64,000 nt of DNA from Effusibacillus dendaii (lineage in GTDB: Bacteria > Bacillota > Bacilli > Tumebacillales > Effusibacillaceae): the NCBI RefSeq assembly GCF_015097055.1, contig NZ_AP023366.1:1674001-1738000 (forward strand). Direction: 5' to 3'. Positions 3,857 to 13,642 of this stretch are shown here, piece by piece; the first letter of the stretch is position 1, and each line of letters opens with the position of its first letter. A model generated the notes under the pieces. That model ran no database searches. It had not been told where the DNA came from and saw only the letters and a program-made list of their open reading frames with translations. The translations under genes were made by a program, and so were the position numbers.

Positions 3857-4453
3857 TCATTCCACATCCATATACAGATCTTTTCCTTCTAACAACCGCT
3901 GCAGGGCTTCTTCCGTCTGAACCCCCATTACACCGCGGTTTCCCACGACAAAGCAAGGGATTGCAGAAATTCCGTATTGCGCCGCCAGATCGGTGTCGGC
4001 CAATACCTGTGCTTCAAATTGGCGGGATTCCAAAGCTTGTCGGAACGACTGTGGATCAAGTCCGATCTGCCCGGCGATATTCACTAATGTGTCAATATCG
4101 TCGATGTTTTTATCCTCTGTAAATTGGGCACGAAACACCGCATCGTGATACTCGTCGCTCTTCCCGTTTTGCTCTGCGAATTTAGCGCCTTCATGAGCCT
4201 TACGGGAATGTTTGGCCTGTCTGTTCAGATTCATCTGCAGGCCGTATCGGGCAGCAAATTGTCGGACAGACCGCCAGGCCTGCTCGTAATACTCAGGCGA
4301 TTTTTCCGGCACTTCGACACCTTCCGGGCGCAGTTCAAACGATTTCCACTCTATCTCAATTCCTTTTTGCTTGGCCAACCGGTCAAGCGGGACCTTCCCG
4401 ATTAAACAGAAGGGTCAGAGAAAATCGGAAAATACGGTGATCTTGTTTTCCAT
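3857..4453 (-). CDS. DsbA/FrnE-family thiol oxidoreductase, candidate selenoprotein (in-frame UGA)
   Basis: Thioredoxin-fold oxidoreductase of the FrnE-like DsbA family (198 residues if the UGA is read through). The N-terminus reads MENKITVFSDFL-UGA-PFCLIGK, where relatives have SDF(V/L)CPFCYIGK, so the stop codon at 4415-4417 sits exactly on the first Cys of the CxxC active site, giving a U-x-x-C motif. Downstream the frame is intact: EIEWKSFELRPEG (about 33-45), a helical insertion, and the cis-Pro segment GISAIPCFVV (about 159-168). The ATG at 4453 has GAGGG 9 bases upstream. A hairpin fitting the bacterial SECIS rules follows the UGA (separate entry). The alternatives are a simple nonsense mutation with re-initiation at a later TTG, or a base-call error. 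No signal peptide, so cytosolic. Confidence 0.7.
4388..4417 (-). promoter_or_regulatory. Candidate bacterial SECIS element next to in-frame UGA
   Basis: On the coding strand, UGA (4415-4417) is followed after 14 bases by CGGGA-AGG-UCCCG (4400 down to 4388), a perfect 5-bp GC-rich stem with a 3-base loop. About 19 bases separate UGA from the loop and a G is within its first two positions, which meets the published bSECIS consensus as I remember it. The hairpin contains AGGUC, also present in the E. coli fdhF element. Inference; one five-base stem can arise by chance. Confidence 0.5.
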
Positions 4454-4579
4454 CAAAATCATCCCTCTTTTTTAAGTCTTATTGTACTCTTCCTCCCCCA
4501 AATTAGACAGTATCAATATACTTTCACGGAATTGTCAAAAAAATTTCAAATGTGTTCTATAATACATAGAGAAATCATA

Positions 4580-5135: not shown

Positions 5136-6524
5136 CTAGCCCATTCTCTCTTCCCAAACTTTCAACAATAGATCGAGTATCTGCTCCTGAAAAACTTTTT
5201 TCCCCGATTCGCGCATAACTTCCAAAAGCCGATCATCCCAAGGCACCTGCATTCGCTCAAGAACCTGAATTTCTGCCTCCGAAAAAGGGGGAAAGTGACT
5301 CCGAACAGCGGACCGGTAGGTCTCGGCATCCAATCGCCAAGGTATAAACCTGCTTCCGTACCTTTGCGAAAGACCGATTGCCATAACCAAACCTTTCACG
5401 TCAAAGTCTCCGCTATAATAAATCCTGGACTGACCATCCGTAATCTTGTCCAGCAGCCTCAGCGCGGCCAAGGAAGGTTGACCGCTTGTGCAGAGAAGCG
5501 GAAACGGCAATGGAGATCCTGTTTGCAATCCCCGATCCAGCAATGCGCCAAAAATGGACGGATTCTCCACTACAAAAACCTCTGATACGGAAGGCAACGC
5601 GGCTTGATCAAGGCGTTCAACGGCCAGCAGAGGCAATGCCACCGGGTCTTTCGCGTATTCACCCCAGCCCGCCACCCAAACAATCGAGCTGATGTCATCC
5701 AAAACAATTCCTGAGAGAGCGTACTGCGCCCTAATGACCTCGCTTTGGGAAATACTCTCCAATGTATTATCAGAAGTCGGATCCGCTTCAACCGTTGATC
5801 GCGTTTCTTTAAAGCCATCTTCCTGCACGGAAGTCCTGCCCGATTCCTGAACATCCGGTTCCGATCGAAGCCGATATTGGCTTTGCAACGCCAGCATGCC
5901 CCAGTAAAAAATTCTCCCTGCCAGAGTCGAACGGTCAAGTCCGTGCGGGTCGCCGGTCGTCCGTGCCGCAAAAACGGGCAACCGCTCATTACGTGCAGGC
6001 AACTGTTGCAACGCTCCCAAAGCTATTGCCCAGTCCGGACTGTCCCCTTTCTCACAGTAATCTCTGTAACATTCGAGAAATACCCGGTAGCCGCCCCCCA
6101 ATCCGGCGCTTAACTGTTCGATCCAGATCTTCAGCTCTTCTTTTCCTCCGAACTGCAACGCCCAGCGACAAAACCGTTCCCATGTCCTCTGTTCGATTTC
6201 CCGTTGCTCTTGCCGGGTCATCCACTCATCTCCGTACAGCAGACACAGACAATCCTTGATGGAAACCTGAAACCTTGTTTCTTGCAATGCTCTTTCCAGT
6301 TCGGCCAGACGAAACCTGAAATCGGACCGCCCCAGCATATTCGTCGCAAACAGTCCCTCAAGCGCCTGCCGTTCTTCCTCCCGCAAGCCGGAAAGGCGGA
6401 TCGTACCCGCCACCCGCCCGTAACTTTCGTATTTCTTGCGGACCAACTGCCACATTCTTTGCAGACCAGGTTGCCTTAGAAAGTCCAGGCATTCCGTGTT
6501 TCTACCCGAAGGGCTCACCATACT
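5136..6524 (-). CDS. jetD: Wadjet-like JetD, DUF2399/TIGR02679-type Toprim nuclease subunit
   Basis: Last gene of a four-gene SMC-type anti-plasmid operon; the predicted nuclease that cleaves circular DNA extruded by the SMC motor. About 462 residues from the ATG at 6524, which has GGGGGG 6 bases upstream; the frame also stays open to a TTG at 6599 overlapping jetC. The C-terminal part carries a topoisomerase-VI-like Toprim fold: VFVVENPSIF (about 313-322, acidic Glu) and YYSGDFDVKGL (about 364-374, Asp-x-Asp metal ligands), followed by conserved helices. The N-terminal half (DUF3323-like) includes EWMTRQEQREIEQRTWERF. Family names are recalled, not searched. All expected metal ligands are present, so it should be active. 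Confidence 0.85.
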   Translation of the reverse strand, partial: SMVSPSGRNTECLDFLRQPGLQRMWQLVRKKYESYGRVAGTIRLSGLREEERQALEGLFATNMLGRSDFRFRLAELERALQETRFQVSIKDCLCLLYGDEWMTRQEQREIEQRTWERFCRWALQFGGKEELKIWIEQLSAGLGGGYRVFLECYRDYCEKGDSPDWAIALGALQQLPARNERLPVFAARTTGDPHGLDRSTLAGRIFYWGMLALQSQYRLRSEPDVQESGRTSVQEDGFKETRSTVEADPTSDNTLESISQSEVIRAQYALSGIVLDDISSIVWVAGWGEYAKDPVALPLLAVERLDQAALPSVSEVFVVENPSIFGALLDRGLQTGSPLPFPLLCTSGQPSLAALRLLDKITDGQSRIYYSGDFDVKGLVMAIGLSQRYGSRFIPWRLDAETYRSAVRSHFPPFSEAEIQVLERMQVPWDDRLLEVMRESGKKVFQEQILDLLLKVWEERMG

Positions 6525-6588
6525 GTTCCCCCCATCGTAAGAAAACCTGGCATTCGCCCAGTTCTTGAACGCTGGTGAATGCCTGCTC

Positions 6589-9500
6589 TCACCCTTCAAA
6601 TCTGGCGGCAGCCACTTCCTTCACGGCCTCCCAGTCCCCATCTTCCATCATGCGTCTCTGAACACCGTTCCAATAATAAGGAATCAGAGTGACGAAATCC
6701 ACATCCTGCGGGCGGTAGACTTCATAGATGGAAAGCGACGGAACCGTGTCGTAGCAGCCCCATAGCACCTGACTCGTCATCATGTAATCAAATCTCATAT
6801 CGGTAAGCAGTTGGAACATGTCCCGCATGTTCTCATCGTCAACTCCTGCGAACGCTTCATCTAGCGTGATGATACGGGGGGCGTCGGAACGGGAATCCTT
6901 GTACCGGGAGTCGGTAGCGGCAAACAGCGGTATGTACATCGCCATTGCCTTCTCGCCGCCGCTCATCACATTAAAGCGCGAATCGGTCAACTCCCGCCAT
7001 GGTTGGCTCCCCTTGCGGAAATACAAGGTGAACGCAAACCAGTTCCGGTAATCGAGCAATTCTTGCATCCACTTGCGCAAACCTTCTCCCTCTGCCGCAT
7101 CTTCCTTGGCCCATCGGATTCTCGAACGGAAATGCTCCACCATCTGTTCGGTTTCTTCCGGAAGCAGTGTATTTGGATTTTTCCGCAGCAGACGAACCAA
7201 TTTTTCCGTATCCATTTCCCTTTCGTTGCGGGCGGCCCTTGGTGTCCACTCCAGCGACAGAACCAATCCGCTGGAGGTTTTCCGGTTTTCCATAAAGCGG
7301 TTCATTTCCCTGACCCACTGCTCGGCCCGATTGATCTTGTCCTTGATCGCCCGTCCGACACTGTGAATCAGGATTTGCTCGTACAACTCCCGGTCCTTCT
7401 CTTCGATCAGCAGACGCTGTTCCTCTTCCATTCGCAGCAGCTCATTCAGCAACATGCGAGGAGTCCAAGGTTGGGTACGGTCCCGCAACGATTCGATAAA
7501 AATCCGCTCCCCGGTTTCCTCATAACGCTGCACCAACGAGTAATCAAGCAGCGCGTTTTTCGCCAAAACGAACGTTTCCTGCAATTGGTTGAGCATCTGC
7601 TCTTTTCTTCGGGGTTCATAACGTGCACGGAAAAGGTTACGGATGGCTTGCGCCGTCTTCAGAACCCCTTCCGGCGTATCCGTCACGGCTGTTCTCAATG
7701 GATGTTCCGGTTCGAATTCAACGAGTCCCAGTTTCCATTCGTACTGCCAATCAGTAAGGGACTTTTGCAAGAGTTGTTCACTTTGTTCCAGTTCCGTCCG
7801 TTTTTGCCACAGCCGTTCTTTCGCAGCTCCGAGTTCCCCGTCCAGCCGGCGCAATTCCGTGTTGCACCGGTCAATGGTCTTATTGAGTCCGGATCGATGC
7901 TCCTGAAGCTCTTGCAATCGTTGGAATACGTCATACACACCCAACTCCTGAACCAGTTTGGTCAGGGATTGAACCGCTGCCGAAAACTGTGTTTCCCGAG
8001 TCGAAAGCACATCCAGATGCTCCTGTTCGGAAGCGATGCGATCCGCTGCCGCCTGAAGCTCCTCTTCCAACCGACGGGCCTCCTGGCGAATTCTCCCGAG
8101 AACCGCCAGCGTCGCTTTCAGGCTCAGTCCCTGACGTTCATAGTCCTGCAGGGTATCCAGGGCTTCCCGGAAATCTTTTTCTTTTTTGAGACGTGACCAC
8201 TTCGCAGTTTTCTCCAGGACGGTCCGCTGCTGATCCCGCCATTTCCGGGCCGCTTCCTTGTATTTCCCGCTGCATTCCGTCTCCACTTTCTGGGCATGTT
8301 CCCAATCAGCCTTTGCATCATGCAAAATCCGGCTTGCAGCCCGAAGATCCTCGTCTGCAGGCAGTGCTGCCAGTTCCTGCCGTATGTGTTCCGACTCTTC
8401 CTGAAGTTGCCGGATTTGTCCGCGGATCTTATCGATTTCCTGTTCGACAGCCTGAACCTGTTCTTCCAATCTCTTGATTTCGGCAAGTCTTGCCTGTTTG
8501 CGGGCTTCCGCCCCGATCCACTCCGGCCGTTCCTTGCCGACCGTTTGCCCGGTCAACGGCCCCAGCACAAACTGGCCTGTTTCGGTGATAAAGGCGGCGC
8601 TCCCGTCTCTCTGCCCGCCGCTCCCATCGCCCTGTCCAATTTGAATGGTTCGCAATACTTCTTCCACCTGTTGTGCGGTCAAACCGCTTTCGGCAGAGGG
8701 GGTAGGCTCCAGGTAATCGGCCAGCGTATGCCCGAACCAGACAGGTGATGGCTTGATCCAAACCTCTTCTTCCTGTTCCAGAACTTCCACAGCATCGGGT
8801 GAAATCCAGGCGTCCAACAGTCCGGAACGATGCAATACGGTTTCCAGTACCGCTTTTGTCCGCTCGTCCACATGCGGACGAAATTCGCAGAGAGTGTACA
8901 ATGGACCTCCCGGTTGTGTTTCTGACTCCATTCTGCGCTTGCGGGAACGTGAACGAGCCTCGGAATGTTCCGGTTCCGGTTCTCGATGATCACGCCAGGC
9001 TTGCAGCTCACCCCGCAGCTGTTCCATCAGTTGTACCTGCAGATTCAGTTGGTGTTCCGCCGTCAGCCTTTGGGCTGTAATCTCCGCAAGAGCCTGCTCC
9101 GCTGCCGATTTGAAGGGCTCGACTATCTCGTCATAAGCCAGTTCCGGGTACCTTTGCAGCCGGTGCAGCACGGTTCGGAACGTCTCCTCCGCCACATGCA
9201 GCCTCTGCAGCCCTTTATGCCACGCAAGCAGCGAGTCTTCTTGCCGGACAATCGCCTGCCGCAGTGCTTCCTCCTTTGTGTGCATCAACCGTTCGGCCGT
9301 ATCCCTGCTCTCGCGTGCCGCACTCATGCTTTGCTCGGCCTCACTCGCCTTCGCGGCCAATTCCCTTTCATAAACACACAGCTCGTAGGTGTCTTTCAGC
9401 TCTTGCCTGTAACCGGCCACATCCCGTTTCCAGCCGGCCCACATCTTTTCATCCGCCGGTTGTCCATCGTTAGCCCACTGCCGTTCATATAAATCGTGAT

Positions 9501-10734
9501 CCTGAAATTCGATCTCCCGCGCGAGAGCATCCATTTCATTCCGCAATTCCCTCTGTTCGTCCAGGTATTTGGCCAGGTCAGCCTTAACCTTTTCGGCCCG
9601 TTCTTCCTTCTTTTGCCTGTCCTGCTCCAAATCGTCAATCCGTTCGTTTGTTCTCCGGACTTCCTCCTGCGTCTCCGCAAGGCGATCCTGCGCGGTCTTC
9701 AATTCCTGCTGTTTTTCCATCGCTTCCGAGCGGTTTAAATGATCAATTTCCGTCTCCGTTTGCAGCAGTTCTTGCTTGGATGCATCCAGCAAAGAGAGTG
9801 TCTGCTGCTCTTCCTCCTGTAACCCGTTCCAGATCTGCTCCTGTTCAAGAACTTCCGTCGCTTTTTGTTTCCGCTCCGTCTCGTCCTGCAAGACCTTGGC
9901 CGAGAGTTCAAACAGTCGCATCCCGTTATACTGGTCATAAGCCTGAACCAGTTTCTCGGCTTCCGTTCGGTGCATCCGCAATTCGTCCAACCGATCCCCA
10001 ATCTCGTCCATATCTTCAATCACTTCGGCAAGCGGGCGCAAGTCCTCATCGCTTAGAGGGGGCAGAGCGTCATTCAGAATGCCGTAGATCGTGGAAGGTT
10101 TGAAATCTTTTGATAACTTTGGCGAACGAAGTTGGATCATCAACTCCAGCAGGTCTTTGTACGCCTCCAGGTCCGCAAAGCCAAACAGCAATTGATTCAC
10201 CATCTGGCAATATTCGCCCTGTTCGCGCACCACTTTTCCGCCCTCACCGATCAACTGTTCCAATTCAGCCCGATCCAAAGGTACTTTCTGGCCATGTTTT
10301 TCGAACAAATCCCGATCATACAAAAACAGATCCTTGCCAATTCTTCGCCGGTCGGTGATCGCAAACCCCCAGAATCCTACTTGGGCGGCCCCTCGTCTGG
10401 CGCGCAAACCGATCCCTACTGTCAGGAACCTGTTTGATTCAGGTTGCCGAAACTCCAGATACAAGTACCCCGTACGGTCCTGAATCCCGCTTTCCGTCTC
10501 TCCCAGCAGGTAATATTCGATCTTCCGGTCTCTCGAACCGAACGGGTCCAGCCTTGACGGACGCTTGTCCCCGTCCAGAACCAGCGGCAGAAAGCTTTGC
10601 ATGGTGACCGATTTTCCCGAGCCGTTCGCCCCCCGAAAAATCAGCCTTCCTTCCGACAGTTCAAACACTTCGTCCGAGTAGAACCAAAAGTTCAGAACCC
10701 CCGCCCGATTCAGCACCCATCTGTTCTCAGTCAT
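6589..10734 (-). CDS. jetC: Wadjet-like JetC, SMC/MukB-type ATPase (TIGR02680 type)
   Basis: A 1381-residue SMC-like ATPase, the loop-extruding motor of the system. Walker A is GANGSGKSVT (35-44), the ABC signature is NVMSGGEKA (about 1255-1263) and Walker B is RIITLDEAFAGVD (about 1287-1299). Between them lie two very long coiled-coil stretches (about 240-480 and 760-1130) rich in Glu, Gln, Arg and Leu, separated by a hinge-like region near 580-740 with a charged EPEPEHSEARSRSRKRR insertion. The start ATG lies one base after the jetB stop, so translation is coupled. Its length fits the TIGR02680 family as I recall it. Confidence 0.9.
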   Translation of the reverse strand: MTENRWVLNRAGVLNFWFYSDEVFELSEGRLIFRGANGSGKSVTMQSFLPLVLDGDKRPSRLDPFGSRDRKIEYYLLGETESGIQDRTGYLYLEFRQPESNRFLTVGIGLRARRGAAQVGFWGFAITDRRRIGKDLFLYDRDLFEKHGQKVPLDRAELEQLIGEGGKVVREQGEYCQMVNQLLFGFADLEAYKDLLELMIQLRSPKLSKDFKPSTIYGILNDALPPLSDEDLRPLAEVIEDMDEIGDRLDELRMHRTEAEKLVQAYDQYNGMRLFELSAKVLQDETERKQKATEVLEQEQIWNGLQEEEQQTLSLLDASKQELLQTETEIDHLNRSEAMEKQQELKTAQDRLAETQEEVRRTNERIDDLEQDRQKKEERAEKVKADLAKYLDEQRELRNEMDALAREIEFQDHDLYERQWANDGQPADEKMWAGWKRDVAGYRQELKDTYELCVYERELAAKASEAEQSMSAARESRDTAERLMHTKEEALRQAIVRQEDSLLAWHKGLQRLHVAEETFRTVLHRLQRYPELAYDEIVEPFKSAAEQALAEITAQRLTAEHQLNLQVQLMEQLRGELQAWRDHREPEPEHSEARSRSRKRRMESETQPGGPLYTLCEFRPHVDERTKAVLETVLHRSGLLDAWISPDAVEVLEQEEEVWIKPSPVWFGHTLADYLEPTPSAESGLTAQQVEEVLRTIQIGQGDGSGGQRDGSAAFITETGQFVLGPLTGQTVGKERPEWIGAEARKQARLAEIKRLEEQVQAVEQEIDKIRGQIRQLQEESEHIRQELAALPADEDLRAASRILHDAKADWEHAQKVETECSGKYKEAARKWRDQQRTVLEKTAKWSRLKKEKDFREALDTLQDYERQGLSLKATLAVLGRIRQEARRLEEELQAAADRIASEQEHLDVLSTRETQFSAAVQSLTKLVQELGVYDVFQRLQELQEHRSGLNKTIDRCNTELRRLDGELGAAKERLWQKRTELEQSEQLLQKSLTDWQYEWKLGLVEFEPEHPLRTAVTDTPEGVLKTAQAIRNLFRARYEPRRKEQMLNQLQETFVLAKNALLDYSLVQRYEETGERIFIESLRDRTQPWTPRMLLNELLRMEEEQRLLIEEKDRELYEQILIHSVGRAIKDKINRAEQWVREMNRFMENRKTSSGLVLSLEWTPRAARNEREMDTEKLVRLLRKNPNTLLPEETEQMVEHFRSRIRWAKEDAAEGEGLRKWMQELLDYRNWFAFTLYFRKGSQPWRELTDSRFNVMSGGEKAMAMYIPLFAATDSRYKDSRSDAPRIITLDEAFAGVDDENMRDMFQLLTDMRFDYMMTSQVLWGCYDTVPSLSIYEVYRPQDVDFVTLIPYYWNGVQRRMMEDGDWEAVKEVAAARFEG

Positions 10735-10735
10735 T

Positions 10736-11956
10736 TTATTCAGCCTGCTCCTTCCAGCCGTATGTTCCGTTCCAGCGCATGAACGCCGGATAAAGCTTGA
10801 CGGTATGGACTCCCTCTTGCATGCCCAAATTCCACTCCCGCAAGTGGGCGATCAGTTCATCCGCGAGCAAACTGCTCGTCTTCTCACGGTGTCCCTTGCT
10901 CCAGTAATCCCCGTGGTACTCTTTCAACCGGCTCAGAATCCCCTCAAACTCGGCTCTTGTCAACAGCAAATTGCCCTGTTCGTCTTTCTCAAAGATACCG
11001 GGGTTTTTGTGCAAAATCCGGCGAATCTCACCCGCCAGCAGCATCAACAGATCCGACTCCCCTGCCAGAGTCGGGAACAGTTCCATTTCCCCGGTCACAT
11101 CCGTCCAGGTGAACAACAATCCTTCCCGGAACCGCCGCCCCTCAAGGTTCAACATGTTCCGCATCTGCTCGATCAACCAGGATCTTTGGGTCTGGACATA
11201 CCTCCGCTCTTCGTCCGGCCACTGCCAGTCATATACAACGGGTTCCTGAATCAACCGGCGAAAAATTTTCTGCCTTCTGGCCTGCACATCTGAACCGGTT
11301 GCCGGATCAGCGGCCGCCGGGAGAAGTTGATCAGCCGGAGCAATCAATTCCTCCATGGATTCGTATGCCGTCAGATCTTTCGGAAACCGACGCAGCACAT
11401 ACCGGGCCATCGGGGATGCTTCGTACAACACATTATGATTTCCCCCCTCCCGGGCCCAATCCGATTCCTCCCCTTCTACCGCAACGAGCACTTCCAACTC
11501 CCTCAGTTTCTTTAACGCCCGGGCCATGGACAGTCGATGTTCGTAAAGAGTCCAGTCCAGATTCACATCCAAAGACAGCAAGTGATCGCGGATGGCGTCC
11601 ACCATTTCGGACAGCAAAAATTGTTCCGCTTCTCCCCGCCCTTCCAGGTACCATAGTCCATATGCAAACAGAGCGTAATCCCTGGGGCCGTGAAATGTTT
11701 CGATTCGCATCCACGGTTGCCAGGAACCGGGGATTTTCTCCAACTTGGCAAAGCTGCGCGTGACGATCAGGGAAAAACCGGCATGGTCGTGAAACCAATC
11801 CCGCAATTTCTCATAATGACTCTTGACTAATACAAACATCTCCGGATCTTTCCGCTTCGTAATCCACGGCCGGTTTAAAAGCGCCTGGGCAGCCTGCTGC
11901 AACTCCGCTCTCAGCCGTTCTTGCGTACCGCCTGGAAACTTTCGGATTCGTCTCAC
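10736..11956 (-). CDS. jetB: Wadjet-like JetB, DUF2398/TIGR02678-type subunit (kite/MukE-like)
   Basis: A 406-residue soluble protein, second gene of the operon, expected to be the small kleisin-associated (MukE/kite-like) winged-helix subunit. Features include FHDHAGFSLIVTRSFAKLEK (about 54-73), DYALFAYGLWYLEG (about 93-106) and a winged-helix-like region after EHRLSMARALKKLRELEVL (about 142-160). It starts at GTG 11956, overlapping the jetA stop by four bases (GTGA), a classical coupling. The C-terminus KLYPAFMRWNGTY is typical of this family from memory. The assignment relies strongly on context. Confidence 0.8.
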   Translation of the reverse strand: MRRIRKFPGGTQERLRAELQQAAQALLNRPWITKRKDPEMFVLVKSHYEKLRDWFHDHAGFSLIVTRSFAKLEKIPGSWQPWMRIETFHGPRDYALFAYGLWYLEGRGEAEQFLLSEMVDAIRDHLLSLDVNLDWTLYEHRLSMARALKKLRELEVLVAVEGEESDWAREGGNHNVLYEASPMARYVLRRFPKDLTAYESMEELIAPADQLLPAAADPATGSDVQARRQKIFRRLIQEPVVYDWQWPDEERRYVQTQRSWLIEQMRNMLNLEGRRFREGLLFTWTDVTGEMELFPTLAGESDLLMLLAGEIRRILHKNPGIFEKDEQGNLLLTRAEFEGILSRLKEYHGDYWSKGHREKTSSLLADELIAHLREWNLGMQEGVHTVKLYPAFMRWNGTYGWKEQAE

Positions 11957-13461
11957 TGTGCGGCCACCTCTTTTAAAAACATTCGGAAGTCAGGCAAATC
12001 CAACACTCCGTCTTCGAAGACCAATTTTGCCCGTTGACCGTTTTCGGGTTCCAGCAGGCGAATTTCCAATCCGTCGGGTGTCCGGATCTTTCGCGAACGG
12101 CTTGCCATGCACCGGCCGATCCACAGTAACAGGAACTTGCGTTCCAGCAGGGTCAAACGATCCAGCTCACTCATGGAAAATTCGCCCATCCCGACCCATT
12201 TTCGCAGAATCTCGTCCTCAAACGCTTTTCCCGCAAGAAACGCCTGCCTGGCTATTCGCTGCTGCTCTTTCCGATCGCGGACCGCTTCGGTCTCGCCCGC
12301 TTTTCTTTGGATCCGGCTGCGTGATTTTAACTCTCGAATGATCGGCATCTCGTCCCACATTGACAGATCAGCCGAATCGGAGGTTCGCTCCCCTTCTCCC
12401 TGGAAATGCCGCGTTCGATAGAGACCAAACGTGTAAGCGCCTAGACGGTGGGCATCTTCCGCGTCTTCCAAACTCAAAAACCACTGCCCCAGGTAATCCA
12501 GTTCCCGTTTGCGGCTGATCCCCCACCTGTATTTCTCCTGAATCGCCAATGCATACTTGAGCATTTTGGCAATGCTGTCCTTCGTGGCCCGTTCCAGAAA
12601 AACCACGTCGCTTGGCTCATGCCCGTTTCCCGTAAACCACTGGACGAAAATAGACCACTCCTCCCGTCGGCGATCCATCCGTTCCTCGTTCGTGATGGAC
12701 TCTTCCAACGAAGGCATCCTTGCTTCATCGACCACGACCGCATGAAGAAAAGCCTGCCAGACTTCGGGGCCCGTCTCCTGCAAGATCGCCTCCAACTGTC
12801 CCCCGTAGCGTTGTAGCCCAATGACAAAATTGCGAAGATAGTGAGTCAACGTGTCTTTAAAGACCAGAAACTGTTCCGTAAGCATCAGCTCTTCCGCTCT
12901 CCCGGTCTGCAGGCTCGCCAAATAATCAGAAGCATTCTCATGCAGCTGTCGAAACGAGTTTTGCAAATCCCGCCACAGTTGCAAGGCTTCTCCTTCTGTC
13001 CATTCCGGTGTCTCCCGCACCCGCCTGATATAATCCAGCAACCGTTCCAGAAGAGTGGGCTCCAGCGAGCCTCCATAGCCCTGGATGTTTTCGAGATTCT
13101 CCAGCATCCGCTCAATCTCGATGGTGTAAGGTGTCATTTGATATCGGAATCGCTTGCGAAGATACTCTTCGATGGTGGTTGCCCTGCCACCGTCATGACG
13201 GCTGGTCAGATTTTTCCATTCGGTCAGTGCTTCCAGGTCCCTTTGGCACTGTTCCAGAGAGTAATCGTCCAGCAATCCCCAACTCATCACGCCGGCGTAG
13301 ACTTCTTCAGCTTTTAGCCAATATTTCAACTTGCTGTGATTTTCATAGAAAAACCGTAGAATCAACCGGTAACGGGCCACATTTTCCGCGTTCAGATATT
13401 TGGTCTCCGGTACCGGCTTCGTCCACAATTCCCTTGTTTGTCGTCGGTTCACCGCACTCAT
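11953..13461 (-). CDS. jetA: Wadjet-like JetA, DUF2397/TIGR02677-type kleisin-like subunit
   Basis: First gene of the operon, about 502 residues, expected to bridge the SMC heads as a MukF/kleisin-like subunit. It begins with KPVPETKYLNAENVARYRLI (about 14-33), then a predicted winged helix (KYWLKAEEVYAGVM) and a largely helical body. The region near residues 300-400 contains KYALAIQEKYRWGISRKREL and EDAHRLGAYTFGLYRTRHF. The start could be ATG 13461 or GTG 13452; the latter has AAAGG at better spacing. About 260 AT-rich bases upstream should contain the operon promoter, which I cannot assign confidently. Confidence 0.83.
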   Translation of the reverse strand: MSAVNRRQTRELWTKPVPETKYLNAENVARYRLILRFFYENHSKLKYWLKAEEVYAGVMSWGLLDDYSLEQCQRDLEALTEWKNLTSRHDGGRATTIEEYLRKRFRYQMTPYTIEIERMLENLENIQGYGGSLEPTLLERLLDYIRRVRETPEWTEGEALQLWRDLQNSFRQLHENASDYLASLQTGRAEELMLTEQFLVFKDTLTHYLRNFVIGLQRYGGQLEAILQETGPEVWQAFLHAVVVDEARMPSLEESITNEERMDRRREEWSIFVQWFTGNGHEPSDVVFLERATKDSIAKMLKYALAIQEKYRWGISRKRELDYLGQWFLSLEDAEDAHRLGAYTFGLYRTRHFQGEGERTSDSADLSMWDEMPIIRELKSRSRIQRKAGETEAVRDRKEQQRIARQAFLAGKAFEDEILRKWVGMGEFSMSELDRLTLLERKFLLLWIGRCMASRSRKIRTPDGLEIRLLEPENGQRAKLVFEDGVLDLPDFRMFLKEVAAQ

Positions 13462-13642
13462 CCTTTGCAAGACAATCGTTTCTACATCGTGTCGATCAGC
13501 ACAGGTATATTATACTGCAAAGAAGCAGTTTTACAGACATAAGTAAAATTTGTCCAAGCTACCGTATCGAGATCGTTGAGTCCTCTTGAAAATCGGGTCT
13601 TCATTGAACCACAAAAATAAAATATATTGAATCAATTTTAAC

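Follow-up and report, generated by a model that had tools for sequence, protein, structure and literature searches.

The DsbA/FrnE-type gene and its surroundings

The window, i.e. the whole 64,000-nt stretch of Effusibacillus dendaii DNA that was analysed, carries on its minus strand a gene predicted to encode a DsbA/FrnE-type selenoprotein (Table 1). By direct reading, its frame comprises 199 codons including the stop and runs MENKITVFSDFL, an internal stop and then PFCLIGKVPL; with the stop codon written out, the surroundings are MENKITVFSDFL-TGA-PFCLIGKVPLDRL. The TGA is the sole internal stop of the frame and is followed by 185 intact codons up to the terminal TGA (3859-3857), as in the sequence-only reading made earlier of this DNA, which had counted about 185. 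With the TGA read as a residue, the PF01323 (DSBA) domain covers residues 5-188 (E-value 1.1e-35; 123.6 bits against a cut-off of 25.6), and the codon coincides exactly with the first redox Cys of this FrnE-type protein (SDFL-U-PFC), where the same reading had placed it. A second in-frame ATG is located upstream of the assigned start (4462-4460).

Table 1. Features of the predicted selenoprotein gene and the adjacent open reading frame (window coordinates).
Feature	Position	Strand	Remarks
CDS of the predicted DsbA/FrnE-type selenoprotein	4453-3857	minus	198 residues + stop; Sec = residue 13
In-frame TGA, codon 13, first redox position of UxxC	4417-4415	minus	direct reading
Cys16 codon TGT, second redox residue of UPFC	4406-4408	minus	kept in 29/29 distinct subfamily proteins
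AGAGGG, likely ribosome-binding site	4463-4468	minus	by eye; 9 nt 5' of the ATG at 4453
Proximal hairpin CGGGA-AGG-TCCCG	4388-4400	minus	19 nt from UGA to loop; dG -5.5
Distal hairpin CTTGACC-GGTT-GGCCAAG, proposed apical SECIS	4370-4387, loop 4380-4377	minus	one A.C stem mismatch
Adjacent ORF, 115 aa	3509-3856	minus	starts at the base after the selenoprotein stop

Two other assignments were rejected. The model NF041057 (Rcas_1661 family thioredoxin-like (seleno)lipoprotein) matched the C-terminal part only, with 46.9 bits against the 190 required. Decoding of the UGA as Trp was discarded because Cys stands in this column of the forms without TGA.

The adjacent 115-aa ORF is probably co-transcribed with the selenoprotein gene, to which it may or may not belong. 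It showed no match to Pfam or NCBIfam and, the window's own copies aside, no relative in the loci fetched, so that a role as partner is unsupported. On the same strand, a Wadjet-type locus occupies positions 5136-13470, in which PADLOC identified JetD2 (5136-6599; 3.7e-93) and JetC2 (6589-10734; E 0). The ORFs at 10736-11956 and 11953-13470 stand at the positions expected for further Jet genes and are candidates by position.

Selenocysteine machinery of the genome

The genome of the window is represented by one 3.45-Mb contig (98.3% complete). The genes selA, selB, selC and selD, for which the sequence-only reading had suggested a search, are all present: selA with 609.9 bits, selB with 400.9 bits (above cut-off), selD with 421.6 bits and an in-frame TGA of its own, and tRNA-Sec with 66.4 bits (gathering score 47), reported by ARAGORN as tRNA-SeC(tca). 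One in-frame TGA was found in selD of all four genomes of the genus, in the context AG-U-GCKIG or SG-U-GCKIG. The tRNA-Sec scored above cut-off in three of these four genomes and did not reach it in G003, a draft of ~420 contigs, which has a DsbA gene with TGA (L011). In the order, selA was above cut-off in 14/14 genomes, a setting without discriminating power.

The selB gene (L007:7945-9873) overlaps by four bases the end of the ORF L007:6983-7948 (G000:C1 ~2809982-2812872), which, judging from its CATC motif, we take to resemble thioredoxin reductase. The two genes may be translated together.

Selenocysteine and cysteine forms among homologues

Used singly as query against genome contigs, the window protein did not find relatives. 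With the alignment A1 as query, 110 stretches were found to encode a relative, and 80 of them were kept. A plasmid search gave 257 records, with identity below 60% in all.

The genome holds three PF01323 genes at E ≤ 1e-8, each of which has one in-frame TGA (3/3), and these codons share the column of the first active-site Cys: SDFL-U-PFC in the window gene, SDYV-U-PYC in L013 and FDFN-U-PFC in L015. Across the 14 genomes of the order, one TGA was present in 11 of the 29 PF01323 matches, and TAA or TAG in none. The closest relatives that include the column all have TGA (L037, 59%; L046, 56%; L078, 54%; L079, 53%; L080, 49%), as do the Desulfosporosinus records L082 (56%) and L083 (53%), and the best Cys relative found was L047 (44%). 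In the order of genome G400, 26 of 73 genomes gave a match at 1e-40; these 26 belong to one genus, and every match contained one TGA (26/26). Altogether, TGA occupies the column in 33/33 loci of the window gene's subfamily that contain it, of which 31 were read by script, L185 separately and L081 from its printed translation.

Cys was found at this column in other subfamilies. The codons of 111 distinct family proteins were TGA (37), TGT (48) and TGC (25), with one protein mis-picked; this tally is no census, since the window protein, its alignment or PF01323 served as query in collecting the proteins. The UGA/Cys pairs that the sequence-only reading had named as a check are thus present, with 37 TGA and 73 Cys forms. 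The Cys-form DsbA of Paenibacillus naphthalenovorans (L097:2001-2579) retains a hairpin of the Sec type after its Cys codon (TAGCGGA-GGT-TCCGTTG), as if a switch from Sec to Cys had taken place recently.

A tree built from 131 proteins (58 Sec, 73 Cys), in which Sec was entered as Cys, requires at least ten changes between the Sec and Cys states, nine of them forced by starred branches; its bootstrap had yet to converge completely, and long branches occur in several rows. The 29 rows of the window subfamily, every one of them Sec, form a single clade (support 97/93). Within it, 25 rows make up one clade assigned to genus g148 or named Desulfosporosinus, and the window protein, L037, L046 and L080 lie outside. 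Three contigs of planctomycete MAGs (L149, L150 and L151) carry Sec-DsbA genes of a sister subfamily with the same hairpin as that subfamily, and in the tree they cluster with rows of Bacillaceae (support 84/71). This placement reflects either gene transfer or mis-binned contigs.

RNA hairpins downstream of the UGA codon

Two hairpins follow the UGA codon of the window gene (Table 1). The proximal one is the GC hairpin with AGG loop, about 19 nt from the UGA, of the sequence-only reading. It fits a simple SECIS rule in loop, stem and spacing with a score of -5.5. By itself it is weak evidence: in the long ORFs of the window, a hairpin at least as stable and fitting the rule occurs at 7.4% of 13,727 in-frame codon positions. 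Its stem is conserved, with the GGG/CCC core kept in all 25 distinct ortholog sequences, whereas the early loop G, on which the earlier reading had relied, is not. The loops are AAG in 19 sequences and AGG, AAA and AGA in two each, which leaves a G in the first two positions in 4/25.

In the distal hairpin (CTTGACC-[A/G]GTT-GGCCAAG and variants), six of the seven pairs are kept in 24 or 25 of the 25 sequences; the seventh forms in five and is replaced by an A.C mismatch in 20. The loop reads AGTT in 24 sequences and GGTT in the window, with the GU kept in all 25. Under the SECIS rule, the loop and spacing of this hairpin are right and its stem is mismatched (-3.8 for 18 nt, -7.2 for 20 nt).

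Several codons within these hairpins are frozen. Within 15 codons past the UGA, five of ten scored columns are constant (GGG, CTT, GAC, CAG and TTG), compared with 0/60 equally constant columns elsewhere (Mann-Whitney p 0.0047, with columns treated as independent). This holds in 29/29 coding sequences, with CAG in 28/28 and the window having Arg (CGG) in its place. CTT, GAC, CAG and TTG belong to the distal hairpin and GGG to the proximal one, and the four members outside the main Desulfosporosinus/g148 clade (the window, L037, L046 and L080) keep these codons apart from the window CGG. The RNA constraint that the sequence-only reading had suspected at IGK-VPL was therefore right in spirit, since codons are frozen, but it also covers the second hairpin, which that reading had left undescribed. 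Covariation was near nil because little varies (a term of -0.04 and no pair with both sides changed; one pair on a fuller structure), and the RNA argument consequently rests on the frozen codons.

Simple folding of the window sequence gives no clear preference for the distal hairpin. It appears in a 47-nt fold, and a 54-nt fold prefers another structure, in which the distal core has a probability of 0.38 and the proximal core one of 0.13. Among the 25 ortholog sequences, the minimum free energy structure contains the distal core 17 times and the proximal core 13 times. A long-range alternative fold was not taken as a conserved structure, as it pairs in 221/250 cells against 248/250 for the two hairpins, a set from which the poorly kept pairs 15-27 (12/25) and 32-41 (5/25) were omitted. 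Rfam searches over six loci gave nothing relevant, with a cspA element in L011 below the gathering score and two likely chance matches.

With an uninterrupted stem and dG ≤ -6, a rule-fitting hairpin was present in 31/37 TGA genes versus 7/73 Cys genes, on a background of 5.9% of the 13,727 window codon positions; this difference is support rather than a test, because the threshold was picked after the numbers were known and the genes share ancestry. With no limit on energy, the hairpin occurs in 33/37 TGA and 50/73 Cys genes. The four TGA genes without any rule-fitting hairpin (L037, L078, L079 and L083) all belong to the window subfamily.

The distal hairpin is the likelier SECIS on these data, with the proximal one as a spacer or helper. 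It is favoured by its fixed GU loop, its frozen codons and the similar loop spacing of selD, as well as by the failure of the proximal hairpin to keep its early loop G. The opposite arrangement, in which SelB binds the proximal hairpin and the distal one is incidental or a helper, is the less likely of the two, although it draws on several observations: in the window the proximal stem has no interruption and, with its AGG loop 19 nt from the UGA, conforms to the rule, its GGG/CCC core is kept in 25/25 sequences and its GGG codon in 29/29 coding sequences, and the sister Sec subfamily employs a hairpin at ~20 nt. However, an early loop G is found in 4/25 proximal loops only (AGG and AGA, against AAG and AAA), the distal loop is [A/G]GTT in 25/25 with CTT, GAC, CAG and TTG frozen, and the GT loop of the genus selD starts at nt 34. 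We tentatively describe the window subfamily as a clade with Sec in every copy that has the column and with a tandem two-hairpin SECIS, composed of a proximal GGG/CCC spacer and a distal GU loop 34 nt past the UGA, a description to which we give rather less than an even chance. If true, SelB of these bacteria would accept two geometries, and the spacing would be set anew with repeated gain of Sec in the family.

Assignment of the UGA codon

We predict, with a probability of about 95%, that the window carries a DsbA/FrnE-type selenoprotein gene in which UGA is read as Sec at codon 13. The sequence-only reading had reached the same assignment, and it is now supported by the presence of selA, selB, selC and selD, by the UGA in 33/33 loci and by the Cys homologues. 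The UGA codon and its conservation, the alternation of Sec and Cys across the family, the genes of the machinery and the frozen codons are direct results of the analysis, and from them we infer actual insertion of Sec.

That the TGA arose by nonsense mutation or by a sequencing error in a Cys gene under decay, which would leave an N-terminal stub or a product from an internal start only, is very unlikely because the UGA is common to all 33 subfamily loci with the column. Such an origin would agree with the output of a mechanical ORF finder, which reports a 173-aa ORF starting past the active site, and decay does occur in the subfamily. L081 has an extra TAG 22 codons past its TGA and may be broken. 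L009, from the same genus (G001:C11:11176-11532), is a 67% match to residues 80-198 only; the first 79 residues, including the active site, are absent, which makes it uninformative on the column. Its remaining part lies behind a different upstream gene, and judging from this sequence the DsbA gene seems dispensable in that species. Nevertheless, the other internal stops in the match tables, besides the TAG of L081, are all TGA, and the Sec machinery of the genome is complete. It is also scarcely credible that the UGA is chiefly a selenium-dependent switch, with translation ending at codon 13 under most conditions and selection acting on regulation instead of Sec chemistry: Sec UGA codons are generally decoded incompletely, but this one sits at the catalytic residue, where relatives carry Cys.

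Predicted structure and redox mechanism

An AlphaFold2 model of the selenoprotein (A3, 24 sequences, Cys at position 13) had a mean pLDDT of 94.0 and a pTM of 0.90. In a fold search with this protein, FrnE of D. radiodurans occupied ranks 1-5 (E 3.1e-14 to 3.6e-13; TMq 0.83-0.86), and it was also the best match in a sequence search of solved structures (1.5e-22). Position 13 directly precedes the first helix (14-30) in the model. P14, C16 and P166 are conserved, and by the fold P166 would be the cis-Pro next to the active site. Position 167 holds Cys in 22 and Tyr in seven of the 29 subfamily proteins, and the window protein contains C16 and C167 as its only Cys residues. The C-terminal CX4C of the FrnE subfamily is absent from it. 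FrnE has been described as an oxidoreductase of the DsbA family, predicted to be cytoplasmic, in which this motif is frequent but missing from some members (PMC8945050). The window protein is probably cytosolic as well, with no signal peptide apparent by eye.

The gene would thus encode a DsbA/FrnE-type thiol-disulfide oxidoreductase with Sec as its N-terminal redox residue. During ribosomal reading, SelB with GTP and Sec-tRNA(UCA) would bind the RNA hairpin just 3' of the UGA, presumably the distal rather than the proximal one, and Sec would thereby be inserted at codon 13. Located where the first helix starts, Sec13 would attack disulfides and then be resolved by Cys16. For Lmo1059, mutation of the first Cys of CPFC was reported to abolish GSSG reduction, with insulin reduction independent of that Cys (PMC10715225), and by analogy the attack is expected to come from Sec13.

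A gene caller that ends frames at TGA would lose the catalytic end of the window gene and of both other PF01323 genes in the genome. The family offers a natural Sec/Cys series in which to study when Sec is of advantage to a thiol-disulfide enzyme, and the occurrence of two RNA layouts in a single protein family allows a direct test of what bacterial SelB needs in a hairpin.

Comparison with known systems

The window gene adds to an established selenoprotein type, since DsbA-like UxxC selenoproteins have been published since 2005. Nine sequences were placed under COG2761 in the Sargasso Sea set (PMC1088965), and the GOS set contained DsbA 1 and DsbA 2 with UxxC and DsbA 3 with UxxV (PMC2398784). 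A DSBA-like selenoprotein entry is given for Desulfovibrio desulfuricans (PMC1794560), 45 DsbA-like selenoproteins were counted in 41 organisms (PMC5029168), and a 2026 review table lists the DsbA-like selenoprotein form 1 (PF01323, UxxC) as predicted with high confidence (PMC13188914). In the open-access literature we found no paper on selenocysteine in Effusibacillus and, in searching not aimed at that signal, met no account of two hairpins as the signal of a DsbA selenoprotein.

Form 1 shares with the window gene the PF01323 domain, the UxxC active site, a UGA with Cys homologues and a hairpin 3' of the UGA. The window clade differs in having a second, distal hairpin with a fixed GU loop at 34 nt, a comparison made with the form as a whole. 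FrnE of Deinococcus radiodurans (5cnw, 5cp1 and others), the best match by both sequence and fold, has a similar CPxC-type active site. However, it carries Cys where the window protein has Sec, its C-terminal CX4C is missing in the window protein, and the two are 28-29% identical in fold alignments.

The sister Sec-DsbA subfamily of Bacillota (SDYV-U-PFC; L013, L103, L146 and others) belongs to the same family and has Sec in the same column, and its member L013 sits in the same genome as the window gene. In contrast to the window clade, its proteins, ~36% identical to the window protein, are encoded with a single strong hairpin, mostly AGCGGA-GGY-TCCGCT, ~20 nt past the UGA. The selD genes of the genus encode an unrelated protein and their stem sequences differ from those of the window gene. 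Their GT loop nevertheless begins at nt 34 after the UGA, compared to nt 35 for the distal loop of the window gene, and a separate hairpin precedes it in 4/4 genomes (47-nt folds) or 2/4 (51-nt folds). The freshest point of this work is the putative tandem-hairpin signal, whose GU-loop spacing, as far as the sequences tell, resembles that of selD in the same genome.
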